Assembly: GCF_013409575.1 (NCBI RefSeq)
Contig: NZ_JACCCY010000002.1
Coordinates: 558,001 to 622,000, forward strand
DNA length: 64,000 bases
Reading direction: 5' to 3'
From: Macellibacteroides fermentans
GTDB lineage: Bacteria; Bacteroidota; Bacteroidia; Bacteroidales; Tannerellaceae
Shown here: in pieces, positions 38,937 through 56,500 of the stretch
Position numbering within the stretch: the stretch's first letter is position 1
How the letters are laid out: each line of letters starts with the position of its first letter
Notes under the pieces: model-generated
Database searches by the model: none
What the model was told of the DNA's origin: nothing
Seen by the model: only the letters and a program-made list of their open reading frames with translations
Translations under genes and position numbers: made by a program

Positions 38937-40382
38937 ATGAATACACAAAATGAAAAAATGACAAACTACCGTTGGGTGATTTGCAGCATGTTGTTTTTTG
39001 CCACAACGGTAAACTATATGGACCGACAAGTACTTTCCCTGACCTGGAAAGATTTTATCGCTCCGGAATTTCATTGGACAAATGCCGATTACGGAAATAT
39101 TACGGCCACATTTTCAATTATTTATGCGCTTGCCATGCTTTTTGCCGGTAAGTTTGTGGATTGGATGGACACCAAAAAAGGATATTTATGGTCCATCGGC
39201 GTTTGGTCTTTCGGTGCCTGTTTGCATGCTCTTTGCGGCATCGGTACCGAATGGGTGGTAGGATTAGATAGTGCCGAGGCATTACGTATTGCAGAGGGAG
39301 CCGACTTAGTGGCAAAGATTGCATCCATCAGTGTTACCTTCTTTATCATCGCCCGCTTTGTTTTGGCAGTAGGTGAGGCCGGAAACTTCCCTGCAGCAAT
39401 TAAGGCTACTGCCGAATTCTTTCCGAAGAAAGACCGTGCTTTCGCTACCAGCATTTTTAATGCCGGGGCAACTGTGGGAGCTTTGGCCGCACCGGTTAGT
39501 ATTCCCTTCATTGCCGCAAGTTTCGGCTGGGAGCTGGCATTCCTTATCATTGGGGCTTTAGGTTTCGTATGGATGGGTTTTTGGGTATTTATTTATAAAA
39601 AACCCGAGGCTCACCCCAGAGTAAATGCTTCGGAATTAACCTATATCCGTCAGGATAACGACCACGAACCCGCAGGAACTACAGAGGCTCCGGCCAAGAA
39701 AATGCCTTTTATGCAATGCTTTACATATAAACAAACCTGGGCTTTTGCATTTGGTAAATTTATGACGGATGGCGTTTGGTGGTTTTTCCTTTTCTGGACT
39801 CCGGCTTACTTAAGCTCGGTATACGGACTGGACTCCACGCAAAGTGCACCTCAGATATTTGTTCTCTACCTCATTACCCTGCTGTCTATCGTAGGTGGAT
39901 GGTTGCCAACCTACTTTGTAGAAAAGAAGGGGATGCATCCCTATGCCGGACGTATGCGTTCAATGCTCATCTTCGCCTTTTTCCCTTTATTGGCATTGCT
40001 CGCACAGCCTTTGGGGGGGATGACCGAGGAGTTTGGCGCTTTGGCAGTCTGGTTTCCTGTGGTGATTATCGGTATCGCCGGAGCGGCCCATCAGGCCTGG
40101 TCGGCCAACATATTCTCTACCGTAGGTGATATGTTTCCCCGTTCGGCTATCGCTACCGTTACCGGTATCGGAGGAATGGCCGGTGGTGTTGGAGCATTTG
40201 TCATCAACATGAGTTCGGGGGTATTATTTGACCATGCCACAAATACTCAGATGCAATTTATGGGTTTTAAAGGAATTGAAGCAGGTTACTTCATCATCTT
40301 TTCTATTTGTGCTGTATCCTATCTGATCGGATGGGTAGTAATGAAAATGCTTGTTCCAACCTATAAAAAGATTAACTTATAA
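38937..40382 (+). CDS. exuT: MFS hexuronate transporter (ExuT-like)
   Basis: A 481-residue major-facilitator protein with 12 predicted membrane segments. The signature NYMDRQVLSLTWKDF at the first helix is typical of the ACS/ExuT family, which imports galacturonate and glucuronate with protons. Other family segments include ARFVLAVGEAGNFPAAIKAT and WSANIFSTVGDMFPRSAIAT. It lies 12 bp after kduI and 15 bp before kduD. Uronate is inferred from family and operon; unsaturated monomers are a possible alternative. Confidence 0.9.
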   Translation: MNTQNEKMTNYRWVICSMLFFATTVNYMDRQVLSLTWKDFIAPEFHWTNADYGNITATFSIIYALAMLFAGKFVDWMDTKKGYLWSIGVWSFGACLHALCGIGTEWVVGLDSAEALRIAEGADLVAKIASISVTFFIIARFVLAVGEAGNFPAAIKATAEFFPKKDRAFATSIFNAGATVGALAAPVSIPFIAASFGWELAFLIIGALGFVWMGFWVFIYKKPEAHPRVNASELTYIRQDNDHEPAGTTEAPAKKMPFMQCFTYKQTWAFAFGKFMTDGVWWFFLFWTPAYLSSVYGLDSTQSAPQIFVLYLITLLSIVGGWLPTYFVEKKGMHPYAGRMRSMLIFAFFPLLALLAQPLGGMTEEFGALAVWFPVVIIGIAGAAHQAWSANIFSTVGDMFPRSAIATVTGIGGMAGGVGAFVINMSSGVLFDHATNTQMQFMGFKGIEAGYFIIFSICAVSYLIGWVVMKMLVPTYKKINL

Positions 40383-40397
40383 TTAAACGTAAAAACT

Positions 40398-41192
40398 ATG
40401 GTAAATTTTTCATTAGAAGGTAAGGTGGCACTTGTTACAGGAGCTTCTTACGGTATAGGATTTGCATTGGCTATGGCCTATGCTCAGGCTGGCGCAACCG
40501 TTGTATTTAACGATATCAAACAGGAGTTGGTGGATAAAGGTCTTGCCGCCTACGAAGCCGAAGGAGTAAAAGCACATGGATATGTATGCGATGTAACCAA
40601 CGAGGACCAGGTTAATAACATGGTTGCACAGATTGAAAAGGAGGTTGGAGTGATTGATATTCTGGTGAATAATGCCGGAATCATTAAACGTATTCCCATG
40701 CATGAGATGACTGCTGCAGAGTTTCGCCAGGTAATCGATATTGATTTGAACGGACCGTTTATCGTGGCTAAGGCTGTTATTCCTTCCATGATTAAGAAAG
40801 GACACGGTAAAATTATAAATATATGCTCGATGATGAGTGAGCTGGGCCGCGAAACGGTATCTGCCTATTCTGCAGCAAAGGGGGGACTTAAAATGCTTAC
40901 CCGCAATATCGCGTCCGAATATGGCGAACACAATATACAATGTAACGGATTGGGACCGGGTTATATTGCCACTCCGCAAACTGCTCCGCTACGTGAACCG
41001 CAGGCAGATGGAAGCAGACATCCGTTCGATTCTTTTATCATCGCCAAAACTCCTGCAGCCCGTTGGGGAACACCCGAAGACCTTGCCGGTCCGGCTGTAT
41101 TCCTGGCATCGGATGCTTCCAACTTCGTAAATGGTCATATTCTTTACGTAGACGGTGGAATATTGGCTTACATCGGAAAACAACCCAATTAA
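40398..41192 (+). CDS. kduD: KduD-type 2-dehydro-3-deoxy-D-gluconate 5-dehydrogenase (SDR)
   Basis: A 264-residue classical SDR: coenzyme motif TGASYGIG, NNAG, catalytic serine in ICSMMS and YSAAK. In the genome context of kduI it most likely reduces 3-deoxy-D-glycero-2,5-hexodiulosonate to 2-keto-3-deoxygluconate. Similar proteins are often called gluconate 5-dehydrogenase, and the sequence alone does not decide between the two. The next gene starts 7 bp after its stop. Confidence 0.88.
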   Translation: MVNFSLEGKVALVTGASYGIGFALAMAYAQAGATVVFNDIKQELVDKGLAAYEAEGVKAHGYVCDVTNEDQVNNMVAQIEKEVGVIDILVNNAGIIKRIPMHEMTAAEFRQVIDIDLNGPFIVAKAVIPSMIKKGHGKIINICSMMSELGRETVSAYSAAKGGLKMLTRNIASEYGEHNIQCNGLGPGYIATPQTAPLREPQADGSRHPFDSFIIAKTPAARWGTPEDLAGPAVFLASDASNFVNGHILYVDGGILAYIGKQPN

Positions 41193-41199
41193 ATTGCGT

Positions 41200-42342
41200 A
41201 TGAAGCTTATTCTTAGTTTTTTATGTGCAGCCATTCTGTTTGGCTGCACTTCAAATAAAATAGCTACGCTTGCCGTACAGAATGTTTCTACCGAACCGCG
41301 CGAGAACGAGATGGTGGAAATTAATGTGGATCCACAGTGGACAACCGCTCCCTTTATTCTGACCGATTCAACGGGAAAGGAGATTCCTTATCAGCTTACC
41401 TATAATAATAAGCTGATATTTCAGGCCAGTGTACCAGCTTGCAGCGAGGCGCGCTACCAATTAAAAGCAGGTGTACCCCAGAAGGTGGATACCATCGTAA
41501 CAGGAAATCAATATCCCGAACGGGTTGATGATATTGCCTGGGAGAATGACCGTATCGCTTTTCGTACCTACGGCCCGGCTTTGCAGGCCAGCGGCGAAAA
41601 GGCCTACGGCTATGATGTCTGGGCAAAACGTGTGTCGCATCCCGTTGTGGCCGAACGTTACCGATTGGAATTAAAAGAAGGAATAACCTATCATAAGGAT
41701 AATGGCAACGGCTGCGATTTCTACAAAGTAGGTCCTACGTTAGGAGCAGGAACTGCAGCACTCATGGTTGCTGATACGTTGGTGTATCCCTATTGTTATG
41801 ATACGTACGAGATACTGGATAACGGTCCGCTACGTTTTACCGTAAAACTTACCTACCATCCGCTTAAGATTAATACAGATACCGCTGTTGTTGAAACACG
41901 ATTGCTATCGTTGGATGCCGGAGCACAGTTAAACAGGGTAATTGTTTCGTACCATGGTCTGTCGGCCGCCACTCCACTGGCTGCAGGTATTGTTTTACAT
42001 GATACGACAACAAATTTTCAAGCTGATGCAGATAGGGGGTATATTGCCTATGCCGATCCGGTGGATCGTGATAACGGACAGCTTTATCTGGCAGCTATTT
42101 TACCGGGCGGAGAGGTTAAGTCGGCACAACCAGTCTACTTTTCTGCCCAAGAGCAAAAGACGCGGGGAGCCAACGGCCATTTGTTAGCATGTACTACTTA
42201 CCAGCCAGACAGTAGCTTTACATACTATTGGGGTGCCGGATGGAGTAAATGGGGCTTTGCCACACAAGATGATTGGTTTAATTTTGTGAGAAAAGAATCC
42301 GCAAAGAAGGCCGAACCTATGATGGTGATAGTCGTAGAGTAA
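41200..42342 (+). CDS. DUF4861 lipoprotein of the hexuronate operon
   Basis: A 380-residue exported protein with a lipobox (ILFGCTSN). The body matches DUF4861, a beta-rich family found in polysaccharide-utilisation contexts (YPERVDDIAWENDRIAFRTYGPAL is a characteristic segment, with an aromatic-rich WGAGWSKWGFA near the end). No biochemical function is established to my knowledge; a periplasmic step before uronate uptake is inferred from the operon. An upstream ATG at 41155 overlaps kduD; the ATG at 41200, 7 bp after the kduD stop, begins the signal peptide and is preferred. Confidence 0.83.
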   Translation: MKLILSFLCAAILFGCTSNKIATLAVQNVSTEPRENEMVEINVDPQWTTAPFILTDSTGKEIPYQLTYNNKLIFQASVPACSEARYQLKAGVPQKVDTIVTGNQYPERVDDIAWENDRIAFRTYGPALQASGEKAYGYDVWAKRVSHPVVAERYRLELKEGITYHKDNGNGCDFYKVGPTLGAGTAALMVADTLVYPYCYDTYEILDNGPLRFTVKLTYHPLKINTDTAVVETRLLSLDAGAQLNRVIVSYHGLSAATPLAAGIVLHDTTTNFQADADRGYIAYADPVDRDNGQLYLAAILPGGEVKSAQPVYFSAQEQKTRGANGHLLACTTYQPDSSFTYYWGAGWSKWGFATQDDWFNFVRKESAKKAEPMMVIVVE

Positions 42343-46209: not shown

Positions 46210-46217
46210 TATATTTG
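46210..46217 (+). promoter_or_regulatory. -7 element of the hybrid sensor gene
   Basis: TATATTTG matches TAnnTTTG, 25 bp before the ATG at 46242; a TTTG at 46183-46186 gives a slightly long 23-bp spacer. The TTG at 46215 lies in the -7 box and cannot be the start. Confidence 0.55.
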
Positions 46218-46241
46218 TACGAATATTTTACCGGATTGATA

Positions 46242-49200
46242 ATGAATAAACAGCTCTATTTATTTATTTGCCTCCTTTTGTGCTTGTTGACGAATGCCCC
46301 TTCGGCGAGGTGTTCCGTTAATCAACAGGATACCAGGTATTATTTCCAGAGGTTGAATAGTAAAGATGGGTTGTCGCAAAATACGGTTCATGCTATTTTA
46401 CAGGATAGTCAGGGTTTTATGTGGTTTGGGACCAAAGATGGTTTAAATCGGTTTGATGGTCTCACTTTTCGCGTTTTCAGAAAAGAAGGAGGTACCTTGG
46501 GGACCAACTTTATTACGACTTTGTATGAAGATACCGATGGAAATATTTGGGTGGGTACCGATATAGGGGTGTATGTCTATTCGAAAGAGACAGAGTCGTT
46601 CAGCAAATTCACAATTAATAGCAACCGGAACACGGTAATTACACAACCGGTAACTTCCATTTTGGGTGATAAAGCCGGTAATATATGGATATCCGTAGAT
46701 TCGCAGGGATTGTTTAGTTTTAATAAGAAAACCCGGAAATTACAGAATTATCAGTTTAACGGCCCCGGACAAATGGTTACGGGAAATGTGACACATTTCT
46801 TGTTTGATTCAAAAGGACGGTGCTGGATCAGTTTCTATTCCGATAACTTGTATTATTCCGACGACCAGTTTAAATCTCTTCATCCATTTTCGTCGGATAC
46901 GGAAGAGAAGCCTTTCCGCGACGATATTATCAATAAATTGGTGGAGGGACCGGATAATACGTTGTTCGTGGGGTCATCCAAAGGGGGACTGAAGAAGATT
47001 GACATCCAATCGAACAAGGTTCGCGATTTATTGCCGATGAAAGATGGAAAGCTACCCTATGTACGCTCCATAGCATACTACACAGACAACGAGCTTTGGA
47101 TAGGTACCGAATCGGGGATTTATATATATAATTTGCTTAGCGGGAAAAGAAATCATCTTGTGCATGACGAAGCGGATTCTTATTCATTGTCTGATAATGC
47201 GATTTATTCATTATACAAAGACAAGGAAGGTGGAATGTGGATCGGATCTTATTTCGGCGGACTAAATTATTATCCCAAGGGATACTCCTACATTGAAAAA
47301 TATTATCCCAAAAAGGAGGACAATTTCAGATTGGGAAAGCGGGTACGTGAATTTTGTCAGGGGAAAGATGGTACCATATGGATTGGTACGGAGGATAAGG
47401 GCTTGTTTCTTTTTGATCCTCAAAATGGAAAAATTCAGCCTTTTGTAGACAAGTTGTTGTACAACAATGTTCATGGTCTGTGCATGGATGGGAATTTTCT
47501 GTGGGTGGGCACCTTTTCCAAGGGACTCAACCGCATTGATTTACGCACCGGAAGAGTTAAGAACTATCAGAAGGGAATGAGAGAGGATGACTTGAGTTCG
47601 AATGATATTTTTTCGGTTTGTCGTTCCAGATCAGGAACATTGTGGATTGGAACAACCTATGGTTTGCATACCTACGACAGAGAGTCGGATCGCTTTAAAC
47701 GGGTGGAAAAGTTGACAGGTATTTTTATTTACGATATGCTGGAAGATGATGCAGGTAACCTTTGGATTGCCACCTATGCAAACGGAATATATTGCTTTAA
47801 TCCAGCTAATAATATATGGAAACACTTTGTACACGAAGAAAATAATCCATACAGCTTATCCACCGACAGGGTGCTGAGCGTTTTTCAGGATACGGCTAAG
47901 CGGTTATGGTTTACCACTCAGGGAGGTGGATTTTGTATGTATGATAAGGTACATGATAGGTTTGAACATTATAATTCCGAATCTTCTGCATTACCATCCA
48001 ATGTTGTTTTTAATATGGTGGAAGATAACAGCGGAAAGCTCTGGATAACGACCAACGACGGATTATTTTGTTTTGATCCCGTAACAAAGGCAGGAAAGGT
48101 GTATACCGTTTCCAGCGGGTTGCTAAGCAATCAGTTTAACTATCAATCGGCTTTCAAAGACCGTTCCGGTAAAATATATATGGGAACAATTGAAGGTTTT
48201 ATCGGTTTCGATCCGGCTAGCTTTACAGAAAACAGATATGTACCGCCGGTGGTTATTACGGATTTTCTTTTGTTCAACCGTAAGGTGCCGGTAGCGACTA
48301 AAGATTCTCCTTTACCCAAAAGTATCAGTTTGCTGGATGCCATTACCCTTAAATCTAGTCAGCATTCATTCTCATTCCGTATTGCAGCGTTAAGTTATCA
48401 GTCGCCGCGGATGAATAAGCTGATGTATAAACTGGAGGGATTCGACAAGGAATGGTTTTACGTTAGGGAAACCCCGGTAATCAATTATTCTAATCTGCCC
48501 TATGGATCCTATACTTTTCTGGTTAAAGGGTCGAACAGTGATGGATTATGGAATGCTACTCCAACAACACTCGAAATTCATATTTTACCACCCTATTATC
48601 TTACTTTCTGGGCTTTTGCCTGTTATTTCCTGGTTGTACTGGCAACGCTTTACGGAGTTTATCGTTACCTGAAAAATCGAAGTGTACAGAAGCACCGTTT
48701 GCAAATGGAAAAGTTTGAACGGGAAAAGGAGCGCGAACTTTATAATGCTAAAGTCGACTTCTTTACTCAGGTGGCGCATGAGATCAGAACTCCTCTTACA
48801 CTTATAAAAAGTCCCCTTGAAAATATTTTGAAAGAAAATGAATTTCAACCCGGAGTGGAAGAGGATTTACAGATTATGAGCAGGAACGCGAACCGGTTAT
48901 TGGATCTGACCAATCAGCTGCTGGATTTCAGGAAGACAGAAAATAATGCCTTCCGGCTAACTTTTGTTGAATGCGAGATAGTAGCGTTGCTGAAGGATAT
49001 ACATGCGCGGTTTATACCGCTGGCAAAACAGAGGTGTATTGATTTTAGAATGGATATTCCGTTGGATAGCTATGTTGTTTCATGCGACAGAGAAGCTCTG
49101 ATTAAGATTGTGAGTAATCTGTTTTCCAATGCGTTGAATCATGCGGGTGGCTTTATTCATGTAAAGCTTGTGACCGAAGAACCTGCCGATTGGTTTTCTG

Positions 49201-50330
49201 TTGTGGTGTCTAACGACGGAGAGATTGTTCCTTCCGAAATGAGAGAGGCTATTTTTAAACCATTTGTACAATATAATGACAAAGGGAAGAAGCAGACTTC
49301 GGGTACCGGTATCGGGTTGGCTTTGGCCCGTTCGCTGGCAGAATTGCATGAGGGTACCCTGATGATGGATGAAACACTTGAACTGAACGTTTTCCGGTTA
49401 ACCCTTCCGGTTCATCACAAAGAGACTATCCGGTTGCATTCTGAAGTGCCGCTTGCTATGGAAGATGTACATGCGACTTCTGAGTTTATTGCTCCGTTGT
49501 ATGATATTCTCCCGGTTGATCAAAAAACGAACGACATCGAACCTGAATTGTCAAACGTGCAGACGAAATCCAACGAGAGAAAAGAAGTAGTTCTGGTTGT
49601 GGAAGATAATAAGGAGATGAGAGGTTTTCTGTGTCGTCATTTATCACCACACTACACCGTACTAGCTGCCGCTGATGGTCAGGAAGCGATAGAAATGTTA
49701 GATACAAATTATGTAAATTTGATTGTGAGTGATGTTATGATGCCGAAGATAGACGGATTGGAGCTTTGTTCCCGGATAAAATCGGATCTGTCATATAGTC
49801 ACATCCCTATCATTTTACTTACAGCCAAAACCAATGTACAGGCTAAAATAGATGGAATCCGTTCGGGTGCTGATGCTTATATCGAAAAACCATTTTCCAT
49901 TGAATTCTTACTTGTCAGCATTTCTGGTATGCTTGCAAACCGTGAAAAATTGCATCAGGCATTTGTAAGCTCACCTTTTATTGGAACAAGCACGATGGCG
50001 ATTACAAAAGCCGACGAGTCTTTTCTGAAGATATTGAACGAAGAGGTAGAACGTAATATGTCGGATCCAGAGTTTAATCTGGATGATTTGGCGGCAAGTA
50101 TGCATATGAGCCGATCCAGTCTGAACCGTAAAATAAAAGGAATACTTGATCTTACCCCTAACGACTATATTCGTCTGGAACGACTTAAAAAGGCTGCCTC
50201 TTTGTTACAGGAAGGCGAATGTAAGATAAATGAAGTATGTTACCGGGTAGGGTTTAATACACCCTCTTATTTTGCCAAATGCTTCCAGAAACAATTTGGC
50301 GTTTTACCCAAAGATTTTGTGAATCCCTGA
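46242..50330 (+). CDS. Hybrid two-component system sensor/regulator (HTCS)
   Basis: A 1362-residue one-chain signalling protein that controls carbohydrate loci. Signal peptide to about residue 25, then two Reg_prop beta-propellers (DGLSQNTVHAILQDSQGFMW, DNAIYSLYKDKEGGMWIGS and further repeats) and a Y_Y_Y domain to about 780, one membrane helix (about 787-808), HisKA with the phospho-histidine at residue 846 in VAHEIRTP, HATPase (NLFSNALNH, GTGIGLALARS), a receiver with Asp1164 in VSDVMMPKIDG, and an AraC-type DNA-binding domain (DLAASMHMSRSSLNRKIKG, VCYRVGFNTPSYFAKCFQ). All catalytic residues look intact. It probably senses an oligosaccharide in the periplasm and activates the GH43 pair downstream. 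Confidence 0.95.
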   Translation: MNKQLYLFICLLLCLLTNAPSARCSVNQQDTRYYFQRLNSKDGLSQNTVHAILQDSQGFMWFGTKDGLNRFDGLTFRVFRKEGGTLGTNFITTLYEDTDGNIWVGTDIGVYVYSKETESFSKFTINSNRNTVITQPVTSILGDKAGNIWISVDSQGLFSFNKKTRKLQNYQFNGPGQMVTGNVTHFLFDSKGRCWISFYSDNLYYSDDQFKSLHPFSSDTEEKPFRDDIINKLVEGPDNTLFVGSSKGGLKKIDIQSNKVRDLLPMKDGKLPYVRSIAYYTDNELWIGTESGIYIYNLLSGKRNHLVHDEADSYSLSDNAIYSLYKDKEGGMWIGSYFGGLNYYPKGYSYIEKYYPKKEDNFRLGKRVREFCQGKDGTIWIGTEDKGLFLFDPQNGKIQPFVDKLLYNNVHGLCMDGNFLWVGTFSKGLNRIDLRTGRVKNYQKGMREDDLSSNDIFSVCRSRSGTLWIGTTYGLHTYDRESDRFKRVEKLTGIFIYDMLEDDAGNLWIATYANGIYCFNPANNIWKHFVHEENNPYSLSTDRVLSVFQDTAKRLWFTTQGGGFCMYDKVHDRFEHYNSESSALPSNVVFNMVEDNSGKLWITTNDGLFCFDPVTKAGKVYTVSSGLLSNQFNYQSAFKDRSGKIYMGTIEGFIGFDPASFTENRYVPPVVITDFLLFNRKVPVATKDSPLPKSISLLDAITLKSSQHSFSFRIAALSYQSPRMNKLMYKLEGFDKEWFYVRETPVINYSNLPYGSYTFLVKGSNSDGLWNATPTTLEIHILPPYYLTFWAFACYFLVVLATLYGVYRYLKNRSVQKHRLQMEKFEREKERELYNAKVDFFTQVAHEIRTPLTLIKSPLENILKENEFQPGVEEDLQIMSRNANRLLDLTNQLLDFRKTENNAFRLTFVECEIVALLKDIHARFIPLAKQRCIDFRMDIPLDSYVVSCDREALIKIVSNLFSNALNHAGGFIHVKLVTEEPADWFSVVVSNDGEIVPSEMREAIFKPFVQYNDKGKKQTSGTGIGLALARSLAELHEGTLMMDETLELNVFRLTLPVHHKETIRLHSEVPLAMEDVHATSEFIAPLYDILPVDQKTNDIEPELSNVQTKSNERKEVVLVVEDNKEMRGFLCRHLSPHYTVLAAADGQEAIEMLDTNYVNLIVSDVMMPKIDGLELCSRIKSDLSYSHIPIILLTAKTNVQAKIDGIRSGADAYIEKPFSIEFLLVSISGMLANREKLHQAFVSSPFIGTSTMAITKADESFLKILNEEVERNMSDPEFNLDDLAASMHMSRSSLNRKIKGILDLTPNDYIRLERLKKAASLLQEGECKINEVCYRVGFNTPSYFAKCFQKQFGVLPKDFVNP

Positions 50331-50361
50331 ACGTAAGAGCTTTTTCATCCTCATTTGATTC

Positions 50362-50393
50362 GATTGTTTTATAGATTGACCGGATTGTTTTAT
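50362..50393 (+). promoter_or_regulatory. Candidate HTCS operator: 21-bp-phased direct repeat
   Basis: GATTGTTTTAT is present at 50362-50372 and again, identical, at 50383-50393, a start-to-start distance of 21 bp or two helical turns. The second copy ends 20 bp before the -7 box, so it covers the place where a -33 should be, and there is no consensus -33. AraC-type activators bind such phased direct repeats, and an AraC-domain sensor gene ends just upstream. Confidence 0.5.
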
Positions 50394-50413
50394 CTCAAAT
50401 AATTCGAATAGGG

Positions 50414-50421
50414 TACTTTTG
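50414..50421 (+). promoter_or_regulatory. -7 element of the GH43 operon
   Basis: TACTTTTG matches TAnnTTTG, 36 bp before the ATG at 50458. The missing -33 suggests activator dependence. The TTG at 50419 is inside the box. Confidence 0.55.
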
Positions 50422-50457: not shown

Positions 50458-51474
50458 ATGAAAAGAGTCATGAGTCCGATCCTTATTCTCAGTATTCTTC
50501 TTTCTTGTGGCTCAGGTGTGACAGGCGATCCATTGCCTGATAATCCTGAGGTGCCAGATGTGAAAACTACCTATAGAAATCCTGTAGTCAATTTTAGTCT
50601 GCCCGATCCAACAATTATTCAGGCAGCTGATAGCACCTTCTATTTATATGCAACGGAAGATATCCGGAATGTACCTATCCTTCATTCGTCCGATTTGGTG
50701 AACTGGACGGAAGTCGGCACAGCTTTCACCGATCAGACCCGCCCCAATTTCGAACCTAAGGGGGGGATTTGGGCTCCGGATATTAATCGTATCGGAGATA
50801 AATATGTATTGTATTACTCAATGTCTGTCTGGGGTGGCGAGTGGACTTGCGGTATTGGTGTTGCAACCTCGGATAAGCCAGAAGGACCTTTTCAGGATCA
50901 TGGAATGTTGTTCAGAAGTAATGAAATAGGCGTGCAAAATTCCATCGATCCTTTTTATATAGAAGAGGGCGGTTCCAGGTATCTGTTTTGGGGCAGTTTC
51001 AGAGGTATTTTTGCCATCGAACTGACCGACAACGGACTTTCGGTTAAACCGGGTGCTGAAAAAAAACAAATTGCAGGAACTGCCTACGAAGGGACTTATA
51101 TCCATAAGAAAAATGGTTTTTATTATCTGTTTGCCTCTACAGGAACTTGCTGCGAAGGTTTGAAGAGTACATATACCACAGTGGTGGGACGTTCCAGCAA
51201 CTTATTTGGCCCCTATGCCGATAAAAGTGGTCAAAGTATGCTTACCAACCATCACGAAGTCCTGATTCAGAAAAACAACTCTTTCGTGGGTACAGGTCAT
51301 AATTCAGAAATAGTTACAGATAAAGCCGGCAACGACTGGATTTTTTACCATGGCGTGGATGTAAAGAATCCCCATGGCCGTGTGTTGTTGCTCGACAAGG
51401 TGCAGTGGAAGGAGGGCTGGCCACGCATCGAAACAAGTTCGCCATCAGTCCAATCACTCCTGCCTGTTTTTTAA
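50458..51474 (+). CDS. GH43-family glycosidase, lipoprotein
   Basis: A 338-residue five-bladed beta-propeller enzyme with a lipobox (ILLSCGSG). The GH43 triad is visible: catalytic base Asp50 in LPDPTII, the pKa-modulating Asp in GIWAPDINRI and the acid glutamate in GTAYEGTYIHKK. The opening YRNPVVNFSLPDPTII and a late NDWIFYHGVD segment suit the arabinanase/beta-xylosidase group. It probably cleaves arabinan- or xylan-type linkages in the periplasm or at the surface. The ATG at 50458 begins the signal peptide; upstream starts fall in or next to the promoter. The unknown toroid-like gene follows after 12 bp. Confidence 0.88.
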   Translation: MKRVMSPILILSILLSCGSGVTGDPLPDNPEVPDVKTTYRNPVVNFSLPDPTIIQAADSTFYLYATEDIRNVPILHSSDLVNWTEVGTAFTDQTRPNFEPKGGIWAPDINRIGDKYVLYYSMSVWGGEWTCGIGVATSDKPEGPFQDHGMLFRSNEIGVQNSIDPFYIEEGGSRYLFWGSFRGIFAIELTDNGLSVKPGAEKKQIAGTAYEGTYIHKKNGFYYLFASTGTCCEGLKSTYTTVVGRSSNLFGPYADKSGQSMLTNHHEVLIQKNNSFVGTGHNSEIVTDKAGNDWIFYHGVDVKNPHGRVLLLDKVQWKEGWPRIETSSPSVQSLLPVF

Positions 51475-51486
51475 TAAAGATTAATT

Positions 51487-53532
51487 ATGAGTATTTTATT
51501 TAGAAAATTCACATTCGGAGCATTGCTAGCCTCCACGCTTACTATTTTTGGTCTGCATGCCAACAGCTATGAACCATCGCAGACCGTTGCAAGTCTTTCG
51601 TTGAAAGTACCCGGAAACAATTCTAACACGTATCCGCTTACTTTCAACAGACTTGCCAACAGTAATTTTACGTACCAGCTTACTGCTGCAGAACCATTGC
51701 CAGTAACTATTTTTCAAAAAGTAGTGGAAAAAGGACTGAAGAGAGAATTGACCGTTTTTATTACGGCATCAGAGGATGTTTATCTTCATTACAGTCAGCT
51801 TCTCCGCACCGGTTATCGTCACGAAGATTGTTTGTTTTATCTGCCGGGGTTCTGGTATCGCCGCAATCTGCGGTCGCCAAAAGAGGCTCCTTCCTTCCAC
51901 ACGTCGGATAGTTGGACTGTAAGGGAAGACCGCCTTAGTGCTCCTCTTACGGGTATCTTTAACGAAAAAAACGGAGAATCTCTTACCATTTCACGTAAGG
52001 ATGATTTTGCTCACGAAGCTTTAACCACTCATAAAGAGGGTGAAGTGGTGTTGTCCGGTAAAACATCACTTGGCTATACAGGGTTCGAGAATCAAGACGG
52101 TGTTGCTAATCTCTCTTTTGGATTTCCGTATCAGGAAACTCCCCGTAGTTACATACGGAAGTTGACATTGGCTCCGGCAGTTAAAGCTTTTCAATATGTA
52201 AAAAAAGGAGAGACTGTTATTCTGACATGGGAGATACAGGAGAATAGATCGGCCGACTATTCCGCTTTTGTTCAACAAATGTGGGAATATGCATACGATA
52301 GTTATCAACCTCAACCAGTACAATCTCCTTATACATCGGATCGGATGAAGGAGGTCTTGAGCAATTATTTTACAGAAAGTCTGGTAACCGATAAACCATT
52401 GGTTTACACTTCGGGTGTACACCTGCCAACCTATGACTGTACCCCCGTAGGTATTGCTGAAGTGGGTTTTGTGGGTCGCGTCCTGCTCAATGCCTATAAT
52501 GCCCTGGAATATGGAGAACAACAAAAACAATCGGACTTGCCTGCTCAAAGTAAACGAGTTTTCGACAGCTATCTGGCAAATGGTTTTACTTCTGCAGGAT
52601 TCTTTAAAGAGTTTGTAGATTTTAAAACAGGTTATGAAGAAAAGACTCTTAGTATTCGCCGACAATCTGAAGGTGTATATGCCATATTGCACTACTTGCA
52701 ATACGAAAAAGAGCATGGACGAAAGCATCCGGAATGGGAGACTAAAATGAAACATATGTTGGACATGTTTTTACGTTTACAACAAGGTGACGGAAGTTTC
52801 CCCCGTAAGTTTAAAGATGATTTTAGTATAGCCGATAAGAGCGGAGGGAGTACCCCTTCGGCTACATTGCCTTTGGTGATGGGATACAAATATTTTAATG
52901 ATAAGAGATACCTTGATGGAGCCAAACGTACTGCCGGTTATCTTGAAAAGGAACTCATATCTAAAGCTGATTACTTTTCATCTACGCTGGATGCCAACTG
53001 CGAGGACAAGGAGGCTTCATTATATGCTGCAACGGCTACATATTATCTGGCTTTGGTTTCCAAAGGAGCAGAGCGGGAGCATTATGCTTCACTTACAAAG
53101 AGAGCGTCGTATTTTGCGTTATCCTGGTATTATGTATGGGATGTGCCTTTTGCAAGGGGACAAATGTTGGGAGACCTTGGTCTCAAAACCAGGGGATGGG
53201 GTAATGTATCTGTCGAAAATAACCATATCGACGTCTTTATCTTCGAGTTTGCGTCGGTTCTTGATTGGCTGTCAGATTATTACAAAGAGCCGCGTTTTTC
53301 AGGCTTTTCCAAAGTGATAAGTAGCTCAATGAAACAGTTACTTCCTGTTGAAGGTAATCTTTGCGGCGTCGAAAAGAAAGGCTATTATCCTGAAGTAGTA
53401 CAACATACTCAGTGGGATTATGGCAAAAACGGAAAGGGATTCTATAATGATATTTTCGCTCCGGGATGGACAGTTGCTTCACTTTGGGAGCTTTATAGTC
53501 CGGGGAGATCTGAAAAATTTCTTGGAAAATAA
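51487..53532 (+). CDS. Exported protein of unknown function, toroid-like, in GH43 operon
   Basis: A 681-residue protein that I cannot assign to a named family. A signal peptide (about 1-25) leads into a beta-rich N-terminal region (to about 255), then an all-helical region (about 260-675) with repeated helix pairs reminiscent of (alpha/alpha) toroid glycosidases and lyases: EGVYAILHYLQYEKEHG, MLDMFLRLQQGDGSFPRKF, CEDKEASLYAATATYYLALV and NNHIDVFIFEFASVLDWLSD. Conserved-looking acidic and aromatic residues in these segments would suit sugar binding. The operon with GH43 and the sensor upstream argue for a role in glycan breakdown; enzyme or binding protein cannot be told apart. The operon ends at the hairpin 78 bp downstream. 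Confidence 0.75.
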   Translation: MSILFRKFTFGALLASTLTIFGLHANSYEPSQTVASLSLKVPGNNSNTYPLTFNRLANSNFTYQLTAAEPLPVTIFQKVVEKGLKRELTVFITASEDVYLHYSQLLRTGYRHEDCLFYLPGFWYRRNLRSPKEAPSFHTSDSWTVREDRLSAPLTGIFNEKNGESLTISRKDDFAHEALTTHKEGEVVLSGKTSLGYTGFENQDGVANLSFGFPYQETPRSYIRKLTLAPAVKAFQYVKKGETVILTWEIQENRSADYSAFVQQMWEYAYDSYQPQPVQSPYTSDRMKEVLSNYFTESLVTDKPLVYTSGVHLPTYDCTPVGIAEVGFVGRVLLNAYNALEYGEQQKQSDLPAQSKRVFDSYLANGFTSAGFFKEFVDFKTGYEEKTLSIRRQSEGVYAILHYLQYEKEHGRKHPEWETKMKHMLDMFLRLQQGDGSFPRKFKDDFSIADKSGGSTPSATLPLVMGYKYFNDKRYLDGAKRTAGYLEKELISKADYFSSTLDANCEDKEASLYAATATYYLALVSKGAEREHYASLTKRASYFALSWYYVWDVPFARGQMLGDLGLKTRGWGNVSVENNHIDVFIFEFASVLDWLSDYYKEPRFSGFSKVISSSMKQLLPVEGNLCGVEKKGYYPEVVQHTQWDYGKNGKGFYNDIFAPGWTVASLWELYSPGRSEKFLGK

Positions 53533-54062: not shown

Positions 54063-54600
54063 ATGGAAGAAACAATGCAGCAAACAACAGAATCTGTTGG
54101 CTGCCATCAGATGAATAGGACGGAATCCGAAGGGTATGATGGAGCGCAGACTTTTATGAGGATAATAGGTGAAAACCTAGTGGAAGTGCAGATAGGCACA
54201 ACCAATTTGTTGGAACTTATCCTGAGTCCCGAAAACTTAAATCGATCTTATCGACAAGTAATAGGGAATGACGGATCCGGAGGCGTCGATAAGATGGGAA
54301 CGAGCGAACTGTTGCCATACCTGAACCTCCACAAAGACGAATTGATAGAGCAGCTACAAAAGGGTAAGTACCGGCCCAATCCGGTCCGTCGTGTCGATAT
54401 CCCCAAGGACAACGGCAAGGCACGTCAACTCGGTATCCCTACGGTTGTTGACCGGTTCATCCAACAGGCTATAAGCCAAATGTTGATACCGATATACGAA
54501 CGAGAGTTCAATGACAACAGTTTTGGCTTCCGCCCAAACCGCAGCGCCCACGATGCGCTGAAGCGGGTGCAGGAATATGCAGACAATGGGTATCATTACT
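54063..54600 (+). pseudogene. Group II intron reverse transcriptase/maturase, N-terminal fragment
   Basis: The first 179 codons of the intron-encoded protein. RT0-RT2 blocks are visible: NRSYRQVIGNDGSGGVDKMG, YRPNPVRRVDIPKDNGKARQ, LGIPTVVDRFIQQAISQML, and FNDNSFGFRPNRSAHDALKR. The frame is cut by the ISL3 element immediately after the TAC of HY; base 54600 is the first base of the codon that continues at 56509. Read straight into the IS, the frame goes on for 40 irrelevant codons to 54722. The fragment cannot be functional alone because the catalytic YADD box is in the other part. Confidence 0.9.
54593..54600 (+). repeat. Target-site duplication of the ISL3 element (left copy)
   Basis: TCATTACT immediately before the left inverted repeat is identical to 56501-56508 immediately after the right one. 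Eight bp is the usual ISL3 duplication length. Confidence 0.93.
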
Positions 54601-56500
54601 GGTTCTTCGTCAAATTTGGTGCAGGTTATCCTAAGTTGGAAAGCACGACCTTTCGTCTTAACAGTTCAAATCCAGCCCTGCCATACATCTCTCTTTTCTT
54701 GTTTTTTAATCTGTTTACATGACCCTCCACAACTCCATTACTCCAAGGGTATTTAATGGCGTTTTTTACTGCTTCCAAATCATGAATAATGCCATTTATA
54801 AAACTTTTAATCCTCCGTATTTGGGTCGACTTATACTTCTCGAGCCATTGGTCTAATCTAAGTTCATCTTTACTGTTCAAAACCTCTCTAAAAGTGTTGT
54901 ATACCTCTCTCATGCTTTTTAATAACATAGAGGAGTTAATAATATCCTCTGCCAGTATGTGAGACTTGCTACACTCGCCTGTTTCCTTTGAAACACCCCA
55001 TTCACTATTTGTTAAATGTATAGCAAGTCTGTTGGGTGACATTCCGCTAAATCGAGTTTCTTCATAAACTATCGGAGAGGTATTTAATGCTACTGGTAAT
55101 CTTTTCTTATTCTGATATTCCGGGAAGTGCCTGTTGAACCACTGATAAAAAGATGTTTGATTACCCTTGAATCCCTGTTTTTTCAGAGACACAAATATAT
55201 TTCTTACATTTAACCCCTGATTACAACACTCCTTAATCAGATCCATAAAATCTCCATAATTATTATAATAGATGGTTGCTCGTGGCAACAACTCTTCCAT
55301 TTCAAAATAATATCTTACAGTATTACGGCTAATGTTTAAAGCCTTGGCAATTGCTCTTTGAGAGTAGTTGTTGTTTTTAAGCTCATGAATCCTGTTAAAC
55401 AACTCCTGTTTTCTATGGTTAACACTATTGGTGTGTTTGTTATATTGTGAATCGCTGGTATTTTCGTTATCTCCACTACTTAAGCAGATGTTATTTTTTT
55501 TGCTTTTATAAAGACTCTTCCTGTGAGCCAACCAACTATTTTTAATGGTTTTATACTCCATTCGTATTTCATGTGCTATGTGATCTCCCAGATTTTTCAC
55601 TAAATGAAACCTGTCTGCTATTTGTGACGCCTTGGATGCCCCAGACTTTATAGCATTAGAGTAGCTGCTTGATCGATCCCTGGTTACATACAGTATGGAG
55701 TTATGTCTTATAAGCCAATCTGCAACCTCCTCCTTGTCTCTACTCTTTAGTAGTTCTACGGGACGGTGATTAATCGCATTTACAATAATAGTACCATACG
55801 ATTTGCCTTTCCTGTATGCCCAGTCATCTATGCCTATGGTAGTTAGTTCCTGAAAATGGGGCATTTCTATAGACTTAACGATTCTAAGACAGGTAGAACT
55901 GCTCTGCTTTATTGATAGGAGCTCACTTATATACTCACCTTTACGAGAAGAGACCTCAATGAGCAGTTTTTGCAAAAAGTGACTTGTGCGATCTGTCAGT
56001 CGTGAGTGTTTCCGCGTTAAGGGCAGATGTTGCTCAGAGAAAACTGTTTGAGTGCAATTACTGTAACGGCATCTAAACTTTCTGACTTTCAGTATAATTT
56101 TAACAGCTCTGCCAACTACAGCTAGATCTGTTAATTTGCGCATATAGGATGAATGGACACTTTTACTCCTTTTACCGCAACAGATACATTTTGCTGTCTT
56201 GTCTTTAAGACGGGCAGATAGAAGAATCAAATTATCACTTATAACGGAATCATAGAATACAACACCTGGGATTCCAAAAATAGCTTGGAGCGAATGTTTG
56301 TTTATAAAAAAGTTATTATCTTTGGGTTGGCTAGTGTTGTCAATCATCTTTAAATCCTTTAGTGTCAGACCTTTAAAGATAATAAAAATAATTCTATTAT
56401 ACTAGCTTTTTGTTATTTATTTGCCTGTATATCAACACAATAAGTCAATTATACTGGTTGTTTAAGAACCGTTATTTTGCACCAAATTTGACGAAGAACC
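54601..56500 (-). mobile_element. Complete ISL3-family insertion sequence, 1900 bp
   Basis: The ends are perfect 23-bp inverted repeats (54601-54623 and 56478-56500, beginning GGTTCTTCGTCAAATTTGG). The element is flanked by an 8-bp direct duplication and contains a single full-length transposase gene on the minus strand. Everything looks intact, so the element may still be active. It sits in the reverse transcriptase gene of a group II intron. Confidence 0.95.
54626..56347 (-). CDS. ISL3-family transposase
   Basis: A 573-residue DDE transposase. A zinc-finger N-terminus (CICCGKRSKSVHSS and CRYSNCTQTVF) is followed by the first catalytic aspartates in TIGIDDWAYRKGKSYGTI, then VTRDRSSSYSNAI and ASQIADRFHLVKNLGDH, the most typical ISL3 segment. 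A helix-turn-helix insert (YSQRAIAKALNISRNTVRYY) precedes the final catalytic block, which ends NGVVEGHVNRLKNKKREMYG with the glutamate. The gene fills almost the whole element: its stop is 2 bp from the left inverted repeat. No frameshift or missing segment. Confidence 0.95.
   Translation of the reverse strand: MIDNTSQPKDNNFFINKHSLQAIFGIPGVVFYDSVISDNLILLSARLKDKTAKCICCGKRSKSVHSSYMRKLTDLAVVGRAVKIILKVRKFRCRYSNCTQTVFSEQHLPLTRKHSRLTDRTSHFLQKLLIEVSSRKGEYISELLSIKQSSSTCLRIVKSIEMPHFQELTTIGIDDWAYRKGKSYGTIIVNAINHRPVELLKSRDKEEVADWLIRHNSILYVTRDRSSSYSNAIKSGASKASQIADRFHLVKNLGDHIAHEIRMEYKTIKNSWLAHRKSLYKSKKNNICLSSGDNENTSDSQYNKHTNSVNHRKQELFNRIHELKNNNYSQRAIAKALNISRNTVRYYFEMEELLPRATIYYNNYGDFMDLIKECCNQGLNVRNIFVSLKKQGFKGNQTSFYQWFNRHFPEYQNKKRLPVALNTSPIVYEETRFSGMSPNRLAIHLTNSEWGVSKETGECSKSHILAEDIINSSMLLKSMREVYNTFREVLNSKDELRLDQWLEKYKSTQIRRIKSFINGIIHDLEAVKNAIKYPWSNGVVEGHVNRLKNKKREMYGRAGFELLRRKVVLSNLG

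Follow-up and report, generated by a model that had tools for sequence, protein, structure and literature searches.

Organization of the promoter region

We analysed a 64,000-nucleotide stretch of the Macellibacteroides fermentans genome (contig NZ_JACCCY010000002.1, positions 558,001 to 622,000; hereafter the window, to which coordinates refer unless another locus is named). In it a repeated DNA element lies between the end of a gene for a hybrid two-component sensor/regulator (HTCS, 50330) and the start of a gene for a glycoside hydrolase family 43 (GH43) protein (50458), i.e. in the promoter region beside the HTCS gene. The features are as follows:

46215..50330, plus strand: HTCS (P0001), the putative binder of the element; the open reading frame (ORF) opens with TTG at 46215, with an ATG at 46242
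50355..50372, plus strand: upstream half-site TTGATTCGATTGTTTTAT, containing the first 11-mer
50376..50393, plus strand: downstream half-site TTGACCGGATTGTTTTAT, 21 bp from the upstream half-site and ending at the -33 position
50414..50421, plus strand: -7 promoter box TACTTTTG, 20 bp past the downstream half-site, a spacing that recurs in other loci
50458..51474, plus strand: GH43 (arabinanase-like) lipoprotein, first gene of the predicted target operon
51487..53532, plus strand: P0003, a conserved protein of 681 aa, probably the second gene of that operon

A sequence-only reading of this DNA had described two identical 11-bp repeats in front of the GH43 promoter. Both copies of GATTGTTTTAT are exact (50362-50372 and 50383-50393, period 21 bp), and the end of the second is separated by exactly 20 bp from TACTTTTG. 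The 11-bp core turned out to be only part of a longer unit, which extends 5' to TTGA and comprises 18 bp; the two 18-bp half-sites both start with TTGA and agree in 15 of 18 bases at the 21-bp offset. The whole element thus consists of a pair of 18-bp half-sites, then 20 bp, then the -7 box. The promoter elements of Bacteroides are -33 and -7, and among 54 TAnnTTTG promoters in the examined stretches of this genome the 3' ends of TTTG and TTG peak 20 bp upstream of the -7 box (5/54 and 8/54, respectively). The 3' end of the downstream half-site coincides with that of the -33 box in these other promoters; the consensus -33 had been reported as missing, and indeed neither TTTG nor TTG is found at this position, where the bases read TTAT.

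When the 127-bp intergenic region was shuffled 20,000 times with dinucleotides preserved, no shuffle had an exact run of at least 11 bp at period 21, and 37 had one at any period from 12 to 42. The 64-kb window holds seven exact runs of this length at periods 12-42, the repeat at 50362/50383 being the sole one at period 21. By itself the exact repeat is therefore locally unusual, yet not unique. In the 3.94-Mb genome there is a single occurrence of the spaced pair with exact 11-mers, and the window element has the highest 21-bp self-match among 220 TAnnTTTG words taken from the window and seven HTCS neighbourhoods of the same genome.

The HTCS encoded just upstream has the complete domain chain, with propeller (Reg_prop), Y_Y_Y, HisKA, HATPase_c, Response_reg and AraC-type HTH_18 domains. 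Its sequence relatives in the PDB are 4a2l and 12aw, and the sequence SHIP was read in its receiver domain. The start of the GH43 gene was set at the ATG at 50458, where MKRVMSPILILSILLSCG was read by eye as a lipobox, and not at the mechanically assigned TTG at 50419; the closest solved structures by sequence are endo-arabinanases. The GH43 promoter had been named as the target, and the GH43 gene does stand directly behind the site, but P0003 comes next and probably shares the operon.

Conservation next to HTCS orthologs

Absence of conservation had been named as one observation that would speak against the site, and the comparison did not bear it out. Many HTCS orthologs, with identities as low as about 42%, have such a site past their stop codon; the period is the same, and the spacing to the -7 box rarely differs. 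Conservation in the upstream regions of genomes with an orthologous regulator is thus found, though not universally. Among 80 GH43 relatives, 23 had an HTCS relative upstream on the same strand in the flank examined, and four more had HTCS-like matches elsewhere or reversed. The 23, together with the window locus (L002), two genus mates and L103, make up a set of 27 loci. These were scored for a layout consisting of a TTGA-type half-site, 21 bp, a second TTGA-type half-site, 19-21 bp and TAnnTTnG after the HTCS stop. With at least 6 of the 8 TTGA letters required, 26/27 loci show the layout (0.49 expected from shuffles), and with at least 7 of 8 it is 24/27 (0.035 expected); the gap to the -7-like box is exactly 20 bp in 23 of the 26 loci with the layout. 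TTGATT, TTGT and TAT of the upstream half-site are invariant in six aligned loci, two of which come from one species and two of which have identical sites.

A fairer test is provided by HTCS loci that were fetched later (L192 and 19 of 30 further HTCS loci, 20 in total, 16 of them readable). In 8/16 a site lies just past the HTCS stop, in all eight at exactly 20 bp, and a recheck with a wider helix search gave a site in 8/17 (0.35 expected from shuffles). The recognition helix of the window HTCS, MSRSSLNRKIK, is present in all eight site-bearing loci: a site was found in 8/12 loci with this helix and in 0/5 with other helices. The apparent link between the type of helix 1 (SLN/SLH versus SFY) and the type of half-site comes from related sequences and is only suggestive.

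One of the loci, L005 (JAQVJP010000011.1), is a contig of a metagenome-assembled genome titled Eubacteriales bacterium, whose HTCS, GH43 and P0003 are about 99% identical to those of the window; for this contig the title is almost certainly mistaken.

Geometry at other HTCS genes and in control loci

Some HTCS paralogs show the same geometry, with a 21-bp repeat about 20 bp before a -7 box. We scanned 161 non-coding -7 boxes at 53 HTCS-paralog loci over periods of 12-35 and gaps of 8-33, and the grid peaks at period 21 with gaps of 19-20 (8 boxes each). Repeats with at least 12/18 matches ending 18-22 bp upstream were found for 8/161 boxes at 21 bp and for 0-2 at any other period between 14 and 32; the eight boxes correspond to seven regions, L126 being counted on both strands, and two of the regions, L098 and L147, are relatives. 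Most -7 boxes near HTCS genes lack the geometry. Such a small number would fit few targets per HTCS or half-sites too degenerate to be recognized, and the generality of the rule is not proved.

L098, at a second HTCS in the window genome (10596-10662), and its genus-mate relative L147 (546, minus strand) share a 21-bp repeat of their own, with the core A.ACAAAA placed 20 bp before TATCTTTG. The L098 repeat lies between the HTCS and a divergent GH2 gene and has the second-highest self-match (12/18) among the 220 words mentioned above.

For 57 GH43 loci with no HTCS upstream in the flank examined, identity to the half-sites of the window was discarded as a negative-control score: it would be unfair, since correctly spaced sites of the far group would come out low as well. 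Scored by geometry, 0/57 have a site within 220 bp upstream of the GH43 gene, and within 3 kb there are 8/57 with at least 6 letters, three with at least 7 and one with 8. The three with at least 7 letters (L019, L037 and L063, all at 20 bp) look like real sites, that of L063 adjoining its own reversed HTCS. In Bacteroides rodentium (L037) the site reads TTGAATCTATTGTTCTAT / TTGAAATAAAATGTCTAT, followed after 20 bp by TATATTTG, before a GH43-like gene; no HTCS is present in the flank examined, and a 52% HTCS match (residues 8-694) is found elsewhere in the genome. When 20 of the 57 genomes were searched, an HTCS relative at E <= 1e-220 was found in 18/20 and one at 51-57% identity in 14/20; in Parabacteroides gordonii the relative lies just outside the flank first examined. 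Since most of the searched genomes hold HTCS relatives, these loci do not form a true negative set, and we conclude nothing from their lack of an HTCS. The TTGACCGGATTGTTTGGG upstream of GH43 in L021 and L025 was rejected as chance, as it falls within the reading frame of a further GH43-like gene.

The site stays with the HTCS while the downstream gene changes

Across the loci the HTCS and the site stay paired while the following gene varies. It is GH43 in the window, L078 and L084, another GH43-like gene in L003, L004 and L006 and an oxidoreductase-like gene in L206 and L213 (both from translations read by eye), and GH2 in L051 (Pfam-tested). A SusC-like gene follows in L205, L207, L209, L212, L215 and L216 (read by eye) and in L235 (Pfam-tested). 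The last of these, from P. gordonii, has the order HTCS, site (573-611), SusC, SusD, GH43, GH43, GH43 and a P0003 relative, the third GH43 being 69% identical to P0002 and the P0003 relative 67% to its counterpart. No SusC or SusD was found among the ten other ORFs tested in the window (a selection from 38.9-43.5 kb and 54-63.8 kb), and the closest relative of SusC in the window genome reaches just 36% identity. Because of this low identity the window locus looks, by sequence comparison, like a SusCD-less version of the P. gordonii SusC-SusD-GH43-GH43-GH43-P0003 locus, i.e. the same unit minus its transporter head; this may reflect either loss in the window lineage or gain in P. gordonii.

Search for further targets

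A sequence model (R1) run against the own genome gave a good E-value to the window site alone (2e-15; next hit 0.10). A degenerate pattern allowing up to 3 mismatches found one further site in this genome, C3:72335-72373 (minus strand), and the reversed-pattern controls found none. This site has 3 mismatches, is followed after exactly 20 bp by TACTTTTG, precedes a gene for a DUF418 membrane protein and ranks sixth in model R1 (E 0.52); in front of the relatives with 82% and 79% identity (L173 and L174) it is missing. From its sequence it is a candidate second target of the HTCS, for which we see somewhat less than an even chance.

In ten other genomes the degenerate pattern gave eight hits and the reversed control one. 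Two of the eight are the known HTCS-adjacent sites of L167 and L168, five show no -7 box where one is expected, and the eighth, L170, has its -7 box one base off and neighbours an HTCS relative whose gene contains an in-frame stop. This relative (L125 / L170, G168:C5) contains an in-frame TAG, and the L170 repeat is situated upstream of a gene which, read by eye, resembles a GH51 arabinofuranosidase.

Proposed function and alternative explanations

The half-site pair is very probably the operator of the adjacent HTCS, controlling the GH43-P0003 operon. The interpretation of the earlier reading, that the HTCS encoded just upstream would bind here, is well supported by the comparison across HTCS orthologs, which makes the element a predicted operator. 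A glycan fragment, probably an arabinose-containing one of plant origin, would be bound by the periplasmic propeller and lead to phosphorylation of the receiver domain, which would free the AraC-type DNA-binding domain. The 18-bp half-sites would each take up one such domain, the pair being arranged head to tail on the same DNA face at a distance of two helix turns. Of these, the downstream domain would cover the place of the -33 element and recruit RNA polymerase to the bare -7 box, and this recruitment would switch on the GH43-P0003 operon. As the downstream half-site ends at -33, where the bases are TTAT, the HTCS probably acts as an activator that replaces recognition of the -33 element. 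Activation in place of repression, like binding itself and the assignment of each helix to a part of the half-site, is what we infer from the arrangement.

A number of observations weigh against assigning the site to the HTCS. Several HTCS orthologs lack it: in the 27-locus set L014 has none by the layout measure, the sole failure at this level, and of the five other loci with 45-52% HTCS identity in the search that yielded L103, three (L101, L104, L105) have no site near the HTCS and two (L102, L125) reach only 6 of 8 letters. By the set measure 8/16 of the later-fetched loci are without a site (in L212 a weaker repeat stands at 20 bp), as are the three readable ones among 11 loci with 36-40% HTCS identity that were first left out (0/3). 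Conservation is much weaker in the downstream half-site than in the upstream one (L078, L084). Furthermore, the 27 loci are not independent, as L002 is the window locus itself, L005 is from the same species, L003, L004 and L006 are identical over the element and the far group is related; the layout measure was framed after the loci had been viewed, and L103 was added because it matched. Close pairs such as L206/L210 and L205/L215 are also found among the later-fetched loci. Finally, -7 boxes away from HTCS genes show the repeat at period 21 in 3/204 cases, compared with 0-4 at other periods; these control boxes include L019 and the C3 site, which may be real sites.

The site could belong to another AraC-type or a global regulator encoded elsewhere, with the HTCS as a mere neighbour. 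Site and sensor gene are separable, as seen in B. rodentium (L037) and B. congonensis (L019), where no HTCS is present in the flank examined, and the site-less orthologs point the same way; both genomes, however, hold a 52-54% HTCS relative outside that locus, the site keeps its place after the HTCS stop codon whichever gene comes next, and all eight sites in the later-fetched loci go with one type of recognition helix. We regard a foreign regulator as improbable. It is less probable still that the HTCS binds but represses: overlap of the downstream half-site with the -33 position would allow for this, but a -33 box for which it could compete is missing, and BT1754, an HTCS, is called an activator in a passage of PMC11501099. 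That the repeat is a functionless product of chance or a relic is hardly credible; the window does contain the seven exact short-period repeats, yet none arose at period 21 in the shuffles, and position and geometry recur in other loci.

Activation by the adjacent HTCS can be extended to a broader proposition, whose chances we consider evenly balanced. Bacteroidales HTCS promoters would share one rigid geometry, with half-sites 21 bp apart and the downstream one ending at the missing -33, 20 bp before the -7 box; the HTCS would stand in for -33 recognition, and geometry would suffice to find operators of unknown sequence. In the window this unit would directly precede the GH43-P0003 tail of a locus whose SusC-SusD head, known from P. 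gordonii, is absent.

Relation to known systems

In class II activation by Escherichia coli AraC at araI, two direct-repeat half-sites lie 21 bp apart and the downstream one overlaps the upstream promoter element. The window half-sites have the same spacing and the downstream one takes the same position; in contrast to AraC, the HTCS is membrane-bound and phospho-regulated, and the promoter elements are -33/-7.

Ravcheev et al. 2013 (PMC3878776) predicted motifs for 16/36 HTCS of Bacteroides thetaiotaomicron, described in its HTCS regulon section as direct repeats with tandem sites averaging 21 bp; similar DNA-binding domains go with similar motifs, and the survey covered only HTCS genes co-localized with susC/susD-like genes. 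Since these published predicted sites are direct repeats about 21 bp apart, the window site, judged by its sequence, is of an already known HTCS operator form; the window HTCS differs in having no susC/susD among the ten neighbouring ORFs tested. According to sections of PMC11253607, receiver-HTH fragments of the HTCS BT4124 and BT4663 bind the bt4114 and bt4662 promoters, which have predicted sites. The same sections tie the receiver-loop S/CHIP to an inhibitory contact between the receiver and the DNA-binding domain that blocks DNA binding without phosphorylation, and S/CHIP together with D and K of the DNA-binding domain occurs in most, not all, B. thetaiotaomicron HTCS. The window HTCS carries SHIP, one part of this motif; it differs from BT4124 and BT4663 in its target genes and in that its binding is predicted from sequence.

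The distance between HTCS motif and -7 box was not found stated in the HTCS regulon section of PMC3878776 or in the sections consulted of PMC6874557, PMC11501099 and PMC12125979, literature searches did not turn it up either, and Additional file 2 of PMC3878776 may show it. What we add is the near-constancy of this distance, which we do not claim as unpublished, and the evidence for a SusCD-less version of the P. gordonii locus. A likely operator and target operon are hereby assigned to an HTCS without neighbouring SusC/SusD, a class outside the published motif survey. The near-constant distance predicts an activation mechanism and suggests a largely sequence-independent way to find operators of HTCS whose motifs are unknown.

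P0003 and other genes in the window

For P0003 no match was found in Pfam, NCBIfam or among PDB sequences. It is 56-82% identical across 26 aligned Bacteroidales homologs. Its predicted fold has a beta-rich N-terminal half and an (alpha/alpha)-toroid-like C-terminal half; the mean pLDDT (predicted local distance difference test) was 34.8 from the single sequence, which is useless, and 75.4 with 27 sequences. For the C-terminal half the PDB fold matches are mostly (alpha/alpha) toroids (GH76, epimerases), with Z of 18.7-23.4 among the matches listed. On these models the toroid matches give P0003 no function, and it is perhaps an unassigned carbohydrate-active enzyme.

Upstream of the HTCS region, at 38937-42342, an MFS transporter, a short-chain dehydrogenase and a DUF4861 protein are encoded in a row, perhaps a uronate or pectin catabolic cluster. 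Downstream, an ORF fragment of a reverse transcriptase (54063-54722, plus strand) covers the first 73 of the 205 RVT_1 profile positions. It abuts and overlaps an ISL3-type transposase gene on the opposite strand (54626-56347, minus), and looks as if it had been truncated by the ISL3-type insertion.
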